Assembly: GCF_000217715.1 (NCBI RefSeq)
Contig: NC_015666.1
Location: 1,314,270-1,378,269, forward strand
From: Halopiger xanaduensis SH-6
Lineage (GTDB): Archaea > Halobacteriota > Halobacteria > Halobacteriales > Natrialbaceae
Reading direction: 5' to 3'
Length of the DNA stretch: 64,000 bases
Below the pieces are notes generated by a model, which was given only the letters and a program-made list of their open reading frames with translations, was not told where the DNA came from and made no database searches. The translations under genes were made by a program, and so were the position numbers. Of this stretch, positions 42,765 through 48,283 are shown in pieces (position 1 is the first letter of the stretch; each line of letters opens with the position of its first letter).

Positions 42765-43154
42765 ATGCGTACGAGCCTCAACGTCCCCGACGACCTCCTC
42801 TCGCGCTTCGACGACATCTGGCAGGAACAGGGACTCGAGTCGCGGTCTCGCGGCGTTCGCGAAGCGATGCGGGAGTACGTCGAAGCGCACACGCGTCTCG
42901 AGGACGTCGACGGCGATATCGTGGCCATCGTCGCCTTCGATTACGACCACGAGTCGGTGATCGAGGATCTCCACGACATCCAGCACGAGTTTCAGGACGT
43001 CGTTACGACCACGACCCACACCCACGAGGGCGAGTGGTGTCTCGAGACGGTGTTCTGTCGCGGTGCCGCTGAACGGATTCGAACGTTTGCGTACCGTCTC
43101 CGCGACTTCGACGCCGTACGGCGGGTGAAACTGCTGTTGCTCGCCGACCGATGA
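42765..43154 (+). CDS. NikR-like ribbon-helix-helix metal-responsive regulator (1)
   Basis: A 129-residue protein: N-terminal ribbon-helix-helix (MRTSLNVPDDLLSRFDDIWQ ... RGVREAMREYV) and C-terminal ACT-like metal domain. The NikR metal site can be lined up as H74 with H85, H87 and C92 (THTHEGEWCLE), matching E. coli H76, H87, H89 and C95. It may sense nickel or another transition metal; its place beside COG0523 and znu genes suggests zinc. A TATATAAG element at 42738-42745 lies 27 bases from the ATG, so the mRNA is leaderless. Confidence 0.87.
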   Translation: MRTSLNVPDDLLSRFDDIWQEQGLESRSRGVREAMREYVEAHTRLEDVDGDIVAIVAFDYDHESVIEDLHDIQHEFQDVVTTTTHTHEGEWCLETVFCRGAAERIRTFAYRLRDFDAVRRVKLLLLADR

Positions 43155-43158
43155 TCGC

Positions 43159-43602
43159 TTACGTCTCGAGGGATAGCGCCGACGATCCGGCCCGGAGCGA
43201 CGCGATCGAGTAGTCGACCCGGCGAACCGCCGGTACCGATCGTACCGTATGCACGAAGCCGCCGATCGCGTCGACGGGCCCGACCAGCACGAACACTTCG
43301 AGGCAGTACCGGTCGTCGACGTGGGCGTGCGTCGTTCCGGTAACGAGGGAGTCGTGTTCGTGGCGGAGTTCCGTGAGCCGCCGCTGTACGGCCGTTTCGC
43401 AGTAGTCGTAGACGACCGTCACCGTGCAGGTGCGGTGTGGGGACTGTGCGTCCGAATTTCTGTCCGCCGCGTCGAACTCCTCGAGCAGGCCGCGAGCGGC
43501 TTCGCGGAGCACTTCGCTGCGGCCGCTGTACCCGTGGTCGCTCGCGAAGCGATCGATGCGGTCCAGCAGGGTCTCGGGCATGGAGACGCTGACGACGCTC
43601 AT
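43159..43602 (-). CDS. NikR-like ribbon-helix-helix metal-responsive regulator (2)
   Basis: A 147-residue paralogue of the gene at 42765, converging on it with a 4-base gap. Start MSVVSVSMPETLLDRIDRFA (ribbon strand and first helix), second helix GRSEVLREAARGLLEEF. Metal ligands line up as H83, H92, H94 and C100 (THAHVDDRYCLEV). The two share the domain layout but are divergent in sequence. Divergently placed to the COG0523 GTPase gene, so the inverted repeat between them may be its operator. Confidence 0.87.
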   Translation of the reverse strand: MSVVSVSMPETLLDRIDRFASDHGYSGRSEVLREAARGLLEEFDAADRNSDAQSPHRTCTVTVVYDYCETAVQRRLTELRHEHDSLVTGTTHAHVDDRYCLEVFVLVGPVDAIGGFVHTVRSVPAVRRVDYSIASLRAGSSALSLET

Positions 43603-43623: not shown

Positions 43624-43657
43624 CTAATAGGGTTTGTTATGAATTGGGGCCTATTAG
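43624..43657. promoter_or_regulatory. NikR-style inverted repeat between regulator 2 and the COG0523 gene
   Basis: CTAATAGG (43624-43631), 18 bases, CCTATTAG (43650-43657): a perfect 8-base inverted repeat. The half-site spacing is like the E. coli NikR operator (GTATGA-N16-TCATAC), which is unusual for most repressors. It overlaps the likely promoters of both divergent genes. This is a candidate operator for one of the adjacent NikR-like proteins. Confidence 0.65.
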
Positions 43658-43700
43658 GGTAATAATTAATATTTTAGTGTAGTATATTCACAACTCGGCT

Positions 43701-44918
43701 ATGGTCTCGAGCGACACCCCGATTCCGGTGACGATCCTGAGCGGTAGTCTCGGCGCCGGGAAAACGACGACGCTCAATCACGTACTGAACGCCGATCGCG
43801 AACTGAACGCGGCCGTCGTGGTCAACGACATGGGCGAGGTCAACGTCGACGCCGACCTCGTCGAGCGCGAGTCCGCGCTCAGTCAGGCGGACGAGGATAT
43901 CATCGAACTCTCGAACGGCTGTATCTGCTGCCGGCTCCGCGGCGATATGCTCGACCAGCTCGGCCGGCTGGCTGATCGGCGGGACTTCGACTACCTGCTC
44001 GTCGAAGCCTCCGGGATCAGCGAGCCGATTCCGGTCGCCCAGACGTTCGTCCGCGGCTTCGAGGACGCGACGTTCGACCCGACCGGTGTCTACGAGCTCG
44101 ACACGATGGTCAGCGTCGTCGACGCGTACAGCTTCTGGCAGGGGTTCGACTCGGGACGGACGCTTATGGACGACTCTATCGACCCGCAGGGTAACCGCGT
44201 TCCGGAGGCGGTCCTGCTCGATCAGATCGAGTTCTGCGACGTCCTCCTGCTGAACAAGTGCGACCTCGTCCCCGACGACCGCCTCGAGGAGATGGAGGCG
44301 GTCATCAGTGCGCTGCAGCCGCGCGCGGAGATCGTTCGGACCGAACACGGCCGGGTCGATCCCGACGAGATTCTGCACACGGGTCGGTTCGACTTCGAGC
44401 GCGCGAGCCAGTCGGCCGGCTGGAAGCGCGAACTACGGGAGGGCCACTACCACGACGCCGCGGCCGAGGAACACGGCGTGACGTCGTTCGTCTTCGACGC
44501 GGACAGGCCGTTCCACCCGGCGCGTATCGCCGACTCCCTCTCCGATCTTCCGGACGGCGTCATCCGGGCGAAGGGCTTCTTCTGGTCGGCCGGCCGCGAG
44601 GACGTCGCGATGGGATTGGACAAGGCCGGTCAGTCCGTCAGGGCCGGCCCGAGCGGGACTTGGCTTGCCACCCTCCCCGAGGAGCAACGCGAGCAGTACT
44701 TCGCGGCCAGACCCGGCATCGAGGAGGACTGGGACGAAGAGTGGGGCGACCGCGGCATCGAACTCGTGTTCATCGGCCGCGAGTTCGACCGCGACGCGCT
44801 CGTCGACCGCCTCGAGGGCTGCCTGCTCTCGGATGCGGAGATGAGCGAGGACTGGAGCCGGTATCCCGACCCGTTCGGCACCGACGACCAGCGCGAGTTG
44901 GCGCTGGCCGACGACTAA
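43701..44918 (+). CDS. COG0523/CobW family GTPase, metallochaperone-like
   Basis: A 405-residue G3E GTPase. Walker A GSLGAGKTT at 15-23; CxCC motif CICC at 74-77; NKCDLV guanine-specificity motif; and a CobW C-terminal domain (GVIRAKGFFWSAGREDVAM). COG0523 proteins of the ZigA/YjiA/ZNG1 type deliver zinc to a client enzyme under zinc limitation and are typically Zur-regulated in bacteria. Here the znu operon follows and NikR-like regulators precede, supporting the same role. A TATA-like stretch AATTAATATTTTAG is about 35 bases upstream. Confidence 0.92.
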   Translation: MVSSDTPIPVTILSGSLGAGKTTTLNHVLNADRELNAAVVVNDMGEVNVDADLVERESALSQADEDIIELSNGCICCRLRGDMLDQLGRLADRRDFDYLLVEASGISEPIPVAQTFVRGFEDATFDPTGVYELDTMVSVVDAYSFWQGFDSGRTLMDDSIDPQGNRVPEAVLLDQIEFCDVLLLNKCDLVPDDRLEEMEAVISALQPRAEIVRTEHGRVDPDEILHTGRFDFERASQSAGWKRELREGHYHDAAAEEHGVTSFVFDADRPFHPARIADSLSDLPDGVIRAKGFFWSAGREDVAMGLDKAGQSVRAGPSGTWLATLPEEQREQYFAARPGIEEDWDEEWGDRGIELVFIGREFDRDALVDRLEGCLLSDAEMSEDWSRYPDPFGTDDQRELALADD

Positions 44919-45111: not shown

Positions 45112-45153
45112 CTAGTATTAACATCATAGTCTTGAATCACAGCTATTATTAAC
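45112..45153 (+). promoter_or_regulatory. Direct repeat in the znuA promoter
   Basis: CTAGTATTAAC (45112-45122) and CTATTATTAAC (45143-45153) differ at one base and are 31 bases apart, about three helical turns. A related TATTAAC lies before regulator 1 (42753-42759). These could be binding half-sites or promoter elements (TATA boxes) for znuA, which starts at 45177. Confidence 0.4.
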
Positions 45154-45176: not shown

Positions 45177-46283
45177 ATGCCTCGATACACTCGACGACAA
45201 CTCGTCGCGACCGGTGCCAGCGCCGCCACGATCGGCGCGTTCGCCGGTTGCGTCTCGAACGAGTCGAGCAACGGCGGATCGAACGACGCGGGCGACGGTT
45301 CGGGCCCGAGGGCCCAGGCCTCGTTTTTCGTGTTCGGCGATTTCGCGGCCGCGGTCGCGGGCGACACCGCGCGGGCCGAGACGCTGGTGCCGATCGGCCA
45401 GCACGGCCACGGGTGGGAACCCGGACCGCAGATTCAAGGCACCGTCCTCGAGTCGGACCTGTTCGTCTCCGTCGTGCACGGCTTCCAGCCCTGGGCGGAC
45501 GATCTCGTGACGAGCCTCCGGGACGACGACGCTGCCGTTCACATCGTCGCCGCCGGCGCGGAGGTGGACCTGCTCGAGAGTGAGGGTGGCCACGATTACG
45601 GTCACGACGACGGGGACGGCCACGATCACGGGAACGACGAAGAACACGACCACGAGGAGGGGGGAGAACACAACCGTAGCGAGGACGGAGACGATCACGA
45701 CCACGAGCACAACGGTTCCGACGACGGCGACCACGAGCACGACCGCGGGACCGCCGACCCCCACTTCTGGCTCGACCCGGTGCGAGCAAAGCGAGCCGTC
45801 GACGCCATCGAAGACGGGTTTGCAACCGTCGATAGCGACAACGCCGACGCGTACGCCGCCAACGCCGACGAGTTCCGCAGCCGACTGGACGACCTCGACG
45901 AAACGTTCCGCTCGACGCTCGAGGACGCCGAACGCGACGTCGTCCTCGTCGCCGGTCACGACCCGTTCGCGTACCTCGAGAACCGCTACGGCTTCGAGAT
46001 CGAGACGCTGACCGGACTCACCCCCGACGAACAGCCCACGCCGGCGGATATCGAGCGCGCGCAGACGGTCATCGACGAGTACGATCTCGAGTACGTCTGT
46101 GCGGACCCGCTCGAACCGCAGGACGCCGCCGAGCAGTTGATCGCCGAAACCGACGCGAACGAGGTGTTGCCGCTGACGCCGATCGCCGGCCAGACGCAGG
46201 AGTGGGCCGACGAAGGCTGGGGGTACGTCGAGATCATGGAGGAGATCAACCTCGCGACGCTCGAGCGAGCGCTCGACGCATGA
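45177..46283 (+). CDS. znuA: Zinc (metal) ABC transporter substrate-binding lipoprotein
   Basis: A 368-residue cluster A-I binding protein. Tat lipoprotein signal with RRQLVATG and lipobox FAGC (C at residue about 24). Metal ligands: the G-Q-H-G-H-G motif near residue 75, DPHFWLDPV, AGHDPFAYLEN and the closing D(A/E)NEVLP strand. A very His/Asp-rich loop of about 55 residues (45577-45750) is characteristic of high-affinity zinc ZnuA proteins. The stop TGA overlaps the ATG of the next small gene. Confidence 0.93.
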   Translation: MPRYTRRQLVATGASAATIGAFAGCVSNESSNGGSNDAGDGSGPRAQASFFVFGDFAAAVAGDTARAETLVPIGQHGHGWEPGPQIQGTVLESDLFVSVVHGFQPWADDLVTSLRDDDAAVHIVAAGAEVDLLESEGGHDYGHDDGDGHDHGNDEEHDHEEGGEHNRSEDGDDHDHEHNGSDDGDHEHDRGTADPHFWLDPVRAKRAVDAIEDGFATVDSDNADAYAANADEFRSRLDDLDETFRSTLEDAERDVVLVAGHDPFAYLENRYGFEIETLTGLTPDEQPTPADIERAQTVIDEYDLEYVCADPLEPQDAAEQLIAETDANEVLPLTPIAGQTQEWADEGWGYVEIMEEINLATLERALDA

Positions 46284-46522
46284 GTGCGAACGATCCCGAA
46301 TCCGACGCCGACGAAGCCGTCGGCCCCGACTGGAACGGCGCGGAAACGCCGGACCCCTCCGAATCCCCGCGCTCGACGTTGCTGTCGGTCGTCGTCAAAT
46401 CCGGATCCGAGGGACGGCCGATCTGCACCATCTACCCGCCGGACGTAGCCGCCCCCTACCGGACGACGACCCGGATAACGGCCCGCAGCGACGCGTTCGT
46501 GACCCTCGAGGAGTGGCGATGA
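46280..46522 (+). CDS. Small DUF7511-like protein inside the znu operon
   Basis: An 80-residue protein whose ATG overlaps the znuA stop (ATGA) and whose stop overlaps the znuC start (ATGA), so it is fixed in the operon by translational coupling. The first 30 residues are acidic and disordered, the rest are strands (LLSVVVKSGSEGRPICTIYP ... FVTLEEWR) resembling haloarchaeal DUF7511 from memory. A single Cys is present. A role in metal uptake is suggested only by position. Confidence 0.75.
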   Translation: MSANDPESDADEAVGPDWNGAETPDPSESPRSTLLSVVVKSGSEGRPICTIYPPDVAAPYRTTTRITARSDAFVTLEEWR

Positions 46523-47295
46523 TGAGCGGCCACGAATCGACCGACACTCCCGCCGACGAACCCGCCGTCAGCGTCGCCAACGTAACCTTCGGCTACGGCG
46601 ACCGCCCGGTACTCGAGGACGTCTCGATCGACGTCGAACCCGGGACCTTCCTCGGCCTCGTCGGGCCGAACGGGAGCGGCAAGAGCACGCTGCTCGAGTT
46701 GCTGCTCGGCCTCCGCCGTCCGGACGAAGGAACGGTGCAACTGTTCGGCGAGCCGGCACACGCGTTCGCGGCCGGCGACCGGATCGGCTACGTCCCGCAG
46801 GACGTGACGACCGCCGCTCGAGAAATGCCGATGACGGTCCGCGAAGTCGTCGCAATGGGTCGGTACCCACATCGGCTCGTCGGCCGCTTCTCGCGGACCG
46901 ATCGACGCGCGGTCGACGAGGCGATGGTGCGAGTCGGCATCGACGACCTCGCGTCGCGTCGCATCGGCCGCCTCTCGGGCGGTCAGCGCCAGCGCGTGTT
47001 CATCGCCCGCGCGCTCGCGTCCGAAGCCGACCTCCTCGCGCTCGACGAGCCGACCGTCGGCGTCGACGCGGAGTCCCGCGAGGCGTTCTACGACCTCCTC
47101 AGCGAGTTGAACGCGGCGGGGATGACGATCGTCCTGATCGAGCACGACATCGGCGTCGTCACGACGTACGCGACGGAGACCGCCTGCCTCAACCGCCGGT
47201 TGCACTTCGACGGCGCGCCGGAGGAGTTCGTCGAGACCGACGCCCTCGCGCAGGCGTACGGAACGGACCAACACGTCGTTCGGCACGATCACTGA
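46519..47295 (+). CDS. znuC: Zinc ABC transporter ATP-binding protein
   Basis: A 258-residue ATPase. Walker A GPNGSGKST, Q-loop YVPQDV, signature LSGGQRQRVFIARALASEAD, Walker B LLALDEPTVGVD, and switch His in IEHDIGVV. The start is one of two adjacent ATGs (46519 or 46522); the first overlaps the previous stop. It converts ATP hydrolysis into metal import with ZnuB. Starts the ATGA-coupled tail of the operon. Confidence 0.94.
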   Translation: MMSGHESTDTPADEPAVSVANVTFGYGDRPVLEDVSIDVEPGTFLGLVGPNGSGKSTLLELLLGLRRPDEGTVQLFGEPAHAFAAGDRIGYVPQDVTTAAREMPMTVREVVAMGRYPHRLVGRFSRTDRRAVDEAMVRVGIDDLASRRIGRLSGGQRQRVFIARALASEADLLALDEPTVGVDAESREAFYDLLSELNAAGMTIVLIEHDIGVVTTYATETACLNRRLHFDGAPEEFVETDALAQAYGTDQHVVRHDH

Positions 47296-47296
47296 C

Positions 47297-48283
47297 ATGC
47301 TCGGCCAGTTCACCCTCCTCGGCGCGGACGGCCCGTCCGCCGTCGCCGCGATGCAACTCCTCGACGTCCCGTACGGAATCTTCGAGTGGTTCCTCGAGGA
47401 CGCGTACGGCACCAGAATGGACCGCCTCGGGGAGTACCTGGGCGTGCGGATGCTCGGCTACCCGTACATGCAGCGGGCCTACCTCGCCGCGGTCTGTATC
47501 GCCGTCATCGGGCCGCTCGTCGGGACCTTTCTCGTCCACCGCGAGATCTCGATGATCGGCGACACGCTCGCCCACACGGCCTTCGCGGGCGTCGCCGTCG
47601 GCCTGTTCCTCAACGCGACGCTGTCGCTCTCGCTGTCCCCGCTGCTGACCGCGTTCGTGACGGCCGTCGTGACGGCCCTCCTCGTCGAACTCCTCATCGA
47701 GCACGGCGGCGCCTACAGCGACACCTCGCTGGCGATCGTCCTGACGGGCGGGTTCGCCCTCGGCAGCGTCCTCATCACGGCGACCGACGGCGGTATCGCC
47801 GTCGGTATCGACGCCTACCTCTTCGGGAGCCTCGCAACCGTCTCGCGGGCGGACGTCGCACTCCTGGTCGCGATGTGCCTCCTCGTCGGCGGGCTCGTCA
47901 CACTGGCCTACCGCCCGCTGCTGTACGTCACCTTTGACACGACCGGCGCTCGAGCGGCGCGGCTCAACGTCCGCCTGTACAAGCGGCTCATGGTCGTTCT
48001 GACGGCGCTCGTCGTGGTGAGCGCGATGCAGATCATGGGCGTCATTCTGGTCGCCGCGATGCTGGTCGTCCCCGTCGCCGCCGCGGCGCTGGTCGCCCGG
48101 AGCTTCAAGCGGTCGATCCTGCTCGCGATCCTCGTCGCCGAGTTCGCGGCCGTCGCGGGCGTCACCGTCTCGTACAGCTATGGGATCGCAGCCGGTGGGT
48201 CGATCGTCCTCGCTGCAATCGCGATATACGCCGCCGTGCTCGTCGGTCGAGCGTTTCCACTCGAGCGGTTGAGAGCACAGTAA
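47297..48283 (+). CDS. znuB: Zinc ABC transporter permease
   Basis: A 328-residue ABC-3 family permease with about eight to nine helices. The cytoplasmic NBD-contacting region is visible in the second half (DTTGARAARLNVRLYKRLMV), where the ABC-3 permeases have the G-x-x-x-x-x-L contact segment. An N-terminal extension of about 55 residues (FTLLGADGPSAVAAMQLLDV) precedes the first helix. It begins one base after the znuC stop. Together with ZnuA and ZnuC it completes the importer. Confidence 0.93.
   Translation: MLGQFTLLGADGPSAVAAMQLLDVPYGIFEWFLEDAYGTRMDRLGEYLGVRMLGYPYMQRAYLAAVCIAVIGPLVGTFLVHREISMIGDTLAHTAFAGVAVGLFLNATLSLSLSPLLTAFVTAVVTALLVELLIEHGGAYSDTSLAIVLTGGFALGSVLITATDGGIAVGIDAYLFGSLATVSRADVALLVAMCLLVGGLVTLAYRPLLYVTFDTTGARAARLNVRLYKRLMVVLTALVVVSAMQIMGVILVAAMLVVPVAAAALVARSFKRSILLAILVAEFAAVAGVTVSYSYGIAAGGSIVLAAIAIYAAVLVGRAFPLERLRAQ

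Follow-up and report, generated by a model that had tools for sequence, protein, structure and literature searches.

Our comparison of homologous loci points to what is probably a conserved NikR-type operator and, with it, a predicted metal-uptake regulon in Halobacteria. The starting point is the window, by which we mean the whole 64-kb stretch of Halopiger xanaduensis SH-6 DNA that was analysed, and in it a module of genes whose relatives, by protein, are haloarchaeal:

42765–43154, plus strand: regulator 1, the second NikR-family protein, of a separate clade (129 aa; NikR_C, 2.6e-21)
43159–43602, minus strand: regulator 2, with a ribbon-helix-helix N-terminus (RHH_1 by Pfam) and NikR_C (147 aa; NikR_C, 2.8e-22)
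43701–44918, plus strand: COG0523 GTPase of the zinc-chaperone type (405 aa; nearest NCBIfam model ZigA, 425 bits against a cut-off of 600)
45177–46283, plus strand: His-rich ZnuA-type metal-binding lipoprotein (Pfam ZnuA, 2.4e-58)
46513–47295, plus strand: ZnuC-type ATPase (Pfam and NCBIfam matches)
47297–48283, plus strand: ZnuB-type permease (Pfam and NCBIfam matches)

A sequence-only reading of this DNA had proposed that a NikR-type operator lies between the divergent regulator 2 and COG0523 genes, and had identified it with a perfect 8-bp inverted repeat. The place and the protein class were right; the bases were wrong. The repeat itself exists as described:

43624–43657, no strand assigned: inverted repeat CTAATAGG-N18-CCTATTAG, an exact match, in this genome only

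It sits within the 98 bases that separate the two start codons (ATG at 43602 on the minus strand and at 43701) and, with up to three mismatches allowed, is the single match in the window. The genome-wide search that had been suggested found no other copy in 4.36 Mb at the same tolerance, at which the reversed control pattern gives nine matches per strand. Among 5,000 dinucleotide shuffles of the 104-base region, 241 have a perfect 8-bp inverted repeat of some kind whose gap is 4–30, and 13 have one whose gap is exactly 18. The window has 166 perfect 8-bp inverted repeats with gaps of 4–30, and only the CTAATAGG arm has at least five A/T. Measured against chance, the repeat is modestly unusual, not overwhelmingly so.

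Conservation in relatives, which had also been proposed as a test, is where the repeat fails. From two COG0523 protein searches (30 loci among the matches listed in one; 78 loci from the best 80 of 258 relatives in the other) we collected 57 distinct intergenic regions, the window's included, across which a NikR-family gene diverges from COG0523; loci without a divergent NikR gene beside COG0523 and paralogues of 55–58% were omitted, and identical regions were counted once. The best of the 56 other regions differs from CTAATAGG-N18-CCTATTAG at 5 of 16 positions and the rest at 6 to 9. Of 212 records in a plasmid search, four span 80% or more of the query. The first had been included before (L067); the remaining three, from Haloarcula halophila, Halocatena salina and Halorubrum ezzemoulense, show 8, 8 and 6 mismatches. 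Being conserved in none of the 56 homologous regions or three plasmid loci, the repeat was rejected as the operator.

That it might nevertheless be an operator newly evolved in this lineage deserves very little credence. The repeat is perfect, unique in the genome, AT-rich and in the right place, and G009, the only further genome of this genus that was searched, contains no close match of the module's genes. Besides its absence elsewhere, its geometry speaks against it: the spacing had been likened to that of NikR, a loose likeness, as the centres of the 8-bp arms are 26 bp apart compared with 22 bp for GTATGA-N16-TCATAC. Cores of 5 bp picked inside the arms could be 23–29 bp apart, so spacing alone is not decisive. 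Finally, a perfect 8-bp repeat turns up in the 241 shuffles and also, with other sequences, in seven of the 56 other regions; two of the seven correspond to the conserved box described below, exactly or in shifted form. The left arm occupies the position of an AT-rich element that relatives have about 26 bp before the regulator ATG, and the right arm falls mostly in poorly conserved columns of the relatives' intergenic alignment and profile.

What relatives do conserve is a different pair of half-sites, which overlaps the repeat and sits between two probable TATA elements, both assigned from their position:

43624–43633, minus strand: probable TATA region of the regulator 2 gene, some 26 bp upstream of the ATG; holds the left arm CTAATAGG; relatives conserve an AT-rich element here
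43636–43666, no strand assigned: predicted NikR-type operator GTTATGA-N17-TAATAAT, conserved in homologous regions and like the box before ZnuA-type genes
43636–43642, plus strand: left half-site GTTATGA, with TAT invariant and the final A in at least 90% of 18 aligned rows
43660–43666, plus strand: right half-site TAATAAT, with TAATAA invariant in the 18 aligned rows
43670–43676, plus strand: TATTTTA, the probable TATA element for COG0523, some 28 bp upstream of the ATG and conserved in the 18-row alignment

Across these 18 rows, the 17 relatives keep a TTATGA-like left element and a variable spacer, followed by TAATAATTAGTATTTTA. The consensus is roughly GTTATKA-N16/17-TAATAAY, and in named Halobacteria belonging to several families it recurs where a NikR-like gene and a COG0523 gene diverge; the three plasmid loci also carry the half-site pair. 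Measured from TATK to TAATA, the core spacing is 17 in 31 of the 57 loci, 16 in 11 and 19 in one, and 14 loci have no scorable pair. Scored by 8-mers, the best gap is 15 in 28 of the 57 loci, 14 in 11 and another value in 18, with the gap-14 placements in L101 and L116 looking spurious. The 5-bp cores are 21 bp apart at promoters of the znuA type and 22 bp apart at many COG0523 promoters, within the roughly two helical turns (20–22 bp) expected of NikR. In the 57 distinct loci a NikR-family gene diverges from COG0523 across the box; a divergent NikR is missing from nine loci that have a close COG0523 gene. Both neighbouring regulators carry NikR_C, and a NikR-type operator in this gap is very probably real.

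Two limits bear on how the box was defined. In the information profile, 7 of the 38 distant rows lack the anchor, and conservation at the right half-site is in part imposed by that anchor; what the profile offers is therefore mainly support for the left half-site and evidence against the CCTATTAG arm. In the window's own genome, the loose form TTAWKA-N14..18-TMWTAA gives one match compared with seven for the reversed control; the signal thus comes from comparison and not from this genome alone. A motif search confined to this genome was rejected as a basis, since it yields one exact site and the control yields more matches. As a separate observation, TTCACAAC stands at 43687–43694, just before the COG0523 ATG, and many relatives have TTCATAAC or TTCACAAC there; the element resembles an inverted GTTATGA and could be a third half-site, an initiator or a translation signal.

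The same box recurs upstream of transporter genes. The pattern GTTATK-N16..18-TAATAAY has 151 strand matches in 76 of 125 family genomes, whereas the reversed control has 49 in 38. Genes of the ZnuA, COG0523 or regulator 1 type could be assigned to 80 of the 121 sites listed: 42 precede ZnuA-type genes (one, L167, added by hand, its locus being cut), 34 precede COG0523 genes of the window's type, three the second COG0523 paralogue and one a regulator 1-type gene. Nine of the 34 were fetched with their divergent NikR gene and 25 were assigned by coordinates, lying 40–83 bases from the COG0523 gene with a NikR gene beside at least 19. Where the distance to a ZnuA-type start was measured, the centre of the box is 45–46 bp before it in 32 of 41 cases. 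The clearest sites are close to perfect, one of them reading GTTATTAAC-N12-ATAATAAC, then CTTTTA. Pfam confirmed one of the ZnuA-type proteins (1.4e-45). ZnuA-type genes played no part in defining the box, and its presence before them speaks for a NikR-type operator. The other 41 sites listed, G049:C2 among them, have no assigned gene; read by eye, they include NikA- or NikB-like ABC genes at four loci and a His-rich ZnuC-like gene about 240 bp away at two. At six loci (L182, L204, L212, L214, L215 and L226), again by eye, the box stands before FAD/NAD(P)-binding-like genes (products beginning IVGGGxHG) that may also belong to the metal regulon.

Over the whole order, the stricter palindrome RTTATKA-N16-TMATAAY occurs at 123 sites in 104 of 392 genomes, compared with 26 for the reversed control (sums made by hand). 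We read 30 of the 123 loci and found 14 ZnuA-type genes, one ZnuC-type gene, six genes for an NMT1-like ABC binding protein (one of the six checked by Pfam) and nine loci with nothing recognised. At the second COG0523 paralogue, GTTAATA-N16-TAATAAC, with a variant half-site, lies at exactly -57 in 6 of 25 loci (L134–L136, L139–L141), and the other 19 gave no match to the loose box.

The window's own znuA gene has a degenerate version of the box, predicted to be a weaker operator:

45114–45143, no strand assigned: AGTATTA-N16-TCACAGC, predicted weaker znuA operator, its place and spacing kept in 13 of 15 znuA promoters

In these 13 of the module's 15 znuA promoters, the window's included, ..TA-N16-TCAYA lies at exactly -63, with the spacing of the E. 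coli operator. A similar kind of box is thus present before both the ZnuABC and the COG0523 genes, which one regulator may control. In the Haloarcula halophila plasmid, the promoter of an NMT1-type ABC operon (L280, 1200–1300) carries AGTATTA-N16-TCACAG, with half-sites like those of the window's znuA promoter.

Could this conservation reflect two facing core promoters (BRE plus TATA) with no regulator at all? We hold this to be distinctly unlikely. The half-sites do abut both TATA regions, and the right half-site is conserved together with its TATA. However, ZnuA-type genes are preceded by a box of the same bipartite build, its symmetric half-sites separated by 16 bp, and most of their loci have no divergent gene within 250 bp (among the families tested). 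Nor do TATA and BRE explain the half-site far from the gene.

We infer instead that the box is bound by a NikR-family protein. Both regulators of the module have a NikR_C domain with H, H-x-H and C at aligned positions, columns that we take to be the metal ligands of NikR (the nickel ones). RHH_1 was not reported by Pfam for regulator 1; its residues 2 to 125 align with the solved NikR structure 2bj1, presumably that of Pyrococcus. Both proteins fall just below the NCBIfam NikR cut-offs and are to be read as related: regulator 2 scores 80.7 bits against 83 (equivalog NF002815) and regulator 1 scores 106.8 against 111 (subfamily NF002169). In an alignment with H. pylori NikR, SVSM in the regulator 2 ribbon pairs with SVSL, and the H...H-x-H...C positions match up as well.

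The genome has a third NikR_C gene (G000:C3:1924772-1925164), and NikR_C occurs in 380 of the 392 genomes of the order and in 343 of the 345 good ones, whereas the exact order-wide site is found in only 104. Five genomes with a ZnuA-type site (G028, G032, G042, G112 and G115) have a single NikR_C gene, so the box could be served by this near-universal NikR. Its ribbon reads MAVVSVSMP in 22 of 26 rows and is close to the commonest regulator 2 types (MPVVSVSMP and MSVVSISMP); that of regulator 1 differs (MRTSFNIP). In a tree of 114 NikR proteins the regulator 1 types form a separate clade (100/100); the regulator 2 types do not all group together, and the universal type stands apart from them. 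This tree has few columns, an unsettled bootstrap and long branches, the window's regulator 2 among them. On these sequences, the binder could be either the adjacent regulator 2 or the near-universal haloarchaeal NikR. None of the 12 genomes that lack NikR_C has the box, a weak result, as the box is found in just 104 of the 392 genomes in any case and most of the 12 are incomplete.

AT-rich palindromes are bound by several transcription factors, and another one, for example of the DtxR/MntR type, might bind the box. A DtxR-like regulator, ZntR, has been predicted for the zinc genes of Methanosarcina (PMC2770081, available part). Judged from the NikR side alone, such a binder seems unlikely: the box adjoins NikR genes in differing gene orders, its spacing is the NikR spacing, and in the five ZnuA-site genomes the one NikR_C gene would suffice.

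For a NikR-family binder there are close precedents. The operator of E. coli NikR, GTATGA-N16-TCATAC, has 5-bp cores 21 bp apart (PMC7055735, in the part available) and shares with the haloarchaeal box short inverted half-sites, a TATGA core, the 16-bp spacer of the znuA-type box and a NikR-family gene alongside. The haloarchaeal half-sites are AT-richer (TATTA/TAATA), the spacer is 17 at many COG0523 promoters, and the box sits on an archaeal TATA/BRE promoter before zinc-type genes. The H. pylori operator is given, in the accessible text of its source, as TRTTA-N15-TAWTA, 20 nt centre to centre (PMC5385501); it resembles the box in its AT-rich pentamers near TATTA/TAATA, and its regulator in the aligned SVS ribbon, but has a spacer of 15, rather than 16–17, and nickel and urease targets.

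In its targets, the regulon resembles that of bacterial Zur, which includes a ZnuABC-type transporter and a COG0523 GTPase (PMC2770081, available part). The adjacent regulators at the module, however, are NikR-family, ribbon-helix-helix proteins and not Fur-family ones. Methanosarcina ZntR is a further archaeal candidate regulator of znuABC and COG0523 in the available part of the same paper; it is DtxR-like, from a different protein family, and the likeness lies in the predicted targets.

Which metal is sensed is a closer call, with zinc most likely, ahead of nickel or cobalt but not by far. It is a serious possibility, though we lean against it, that the same operator and proteins govern a nickel or cobalt regulon in which the ZnuA-like transporters carry Ni/Co. 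The aligned NikR ligand positions would fit this, as would a cluster in relatives that joins ECF transporter genes of the CbiM/CbiQ type, a cobalt-factor II methyltransferase and cobalamin genes with up to four NikR-family genes, the nickel-type ABC permeases of one plasmid and the NikA- or NikB-like genes noted above. The window's transporter, however, matches Pfam ZnuA, its ZnuA is His-rich, and its proteins match the zinc models AztA/B/C best in NCBIfam, albeit below cut-off; the COG0523 protein is nearest to ZigA. In bacteria, the pairing of COG0523 and znuABC points to zinc (PMC2770081, available part). In addition, the near-universal presence of NikR_C in the order contrasts with a 2009 survey, whose table, in the part available, scores nickel use in three of five Halobacteriales (PMC2667541).

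In the Haloarcula halophila plasmid (L280, 676–19365), and also in L065 and L282, a metal island carries four NikR-family genes, an NMT1-type ABC transporter, an ECF transporter of the cobalt/nickel type, two COG0523 genes, MoaB-type, SufU-type and cobalt-factor II methyltransferase genes, and ZnuABC. In Halorubrum ezzemoulense (L282, 3933–5554), an IS200/IS605 tnpA and a TnpB-type gene lie between the ECF transporter and regulator 2, in the place that regulator 1 has in relatives.

We consider it likely that NikR tetramers on GTTATGA-N17-TAATAAT repress regulator 2, the COG0523 gene and, through the weaker site, znuA, with zinc the most likely metal. One ribbon-helix-helix dimer would contact each half-site, about two helical turns apart. 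As the predicted operator lies between back-to-back core promoters, binding would block TFB/TBP at both, which would repress regulator 2 (autoregulation) as well as the COG0523 gene; the site at znuA would act in the same way. When metal is plentiful, metal-loaded NikR would bind and repress; when it is scarce, ZnuABC uptake and the chaperone would be made. The sign of regulation, and which of the three NikR proteins acts, are parts of this model that we infer.

More broadly, and tentatively, haloarchaeal NikR and its paralogues may be zinc-uptake repressors and not primarily nickel regulators, an archaeal counterpart of Zur with GTTATTA-N16-TAATAAC as its box. This reading would accommodate the box on the TATA before znuABC, COG0523 and NikR genes, and the plasmid-borne islands with up to four NikR paralogues. 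We found no such NikR/zinc regulon among the titles listed on NikR, COG0523 or haloarchaeal zinc, a search that left the subscription literature mostly outside and is no proof of absence. Fur and Zur were lacking in the archaeal genomes known in 2009, according to the available part of Haas et al. (PMC2770081), and a Haloferax paper has as its subject, in the part available, an sRNA acting on znuC1 and no repressor (PMC8155600). With a box, a protein family and predicted targets in hand, the question of how haloarchaea sense zinc becomes testable in Haloferax or Haloarcula. The predicted regulon also carries a warning, as annotation as a 'nickel-responsive regulator' may hide service to another metal.
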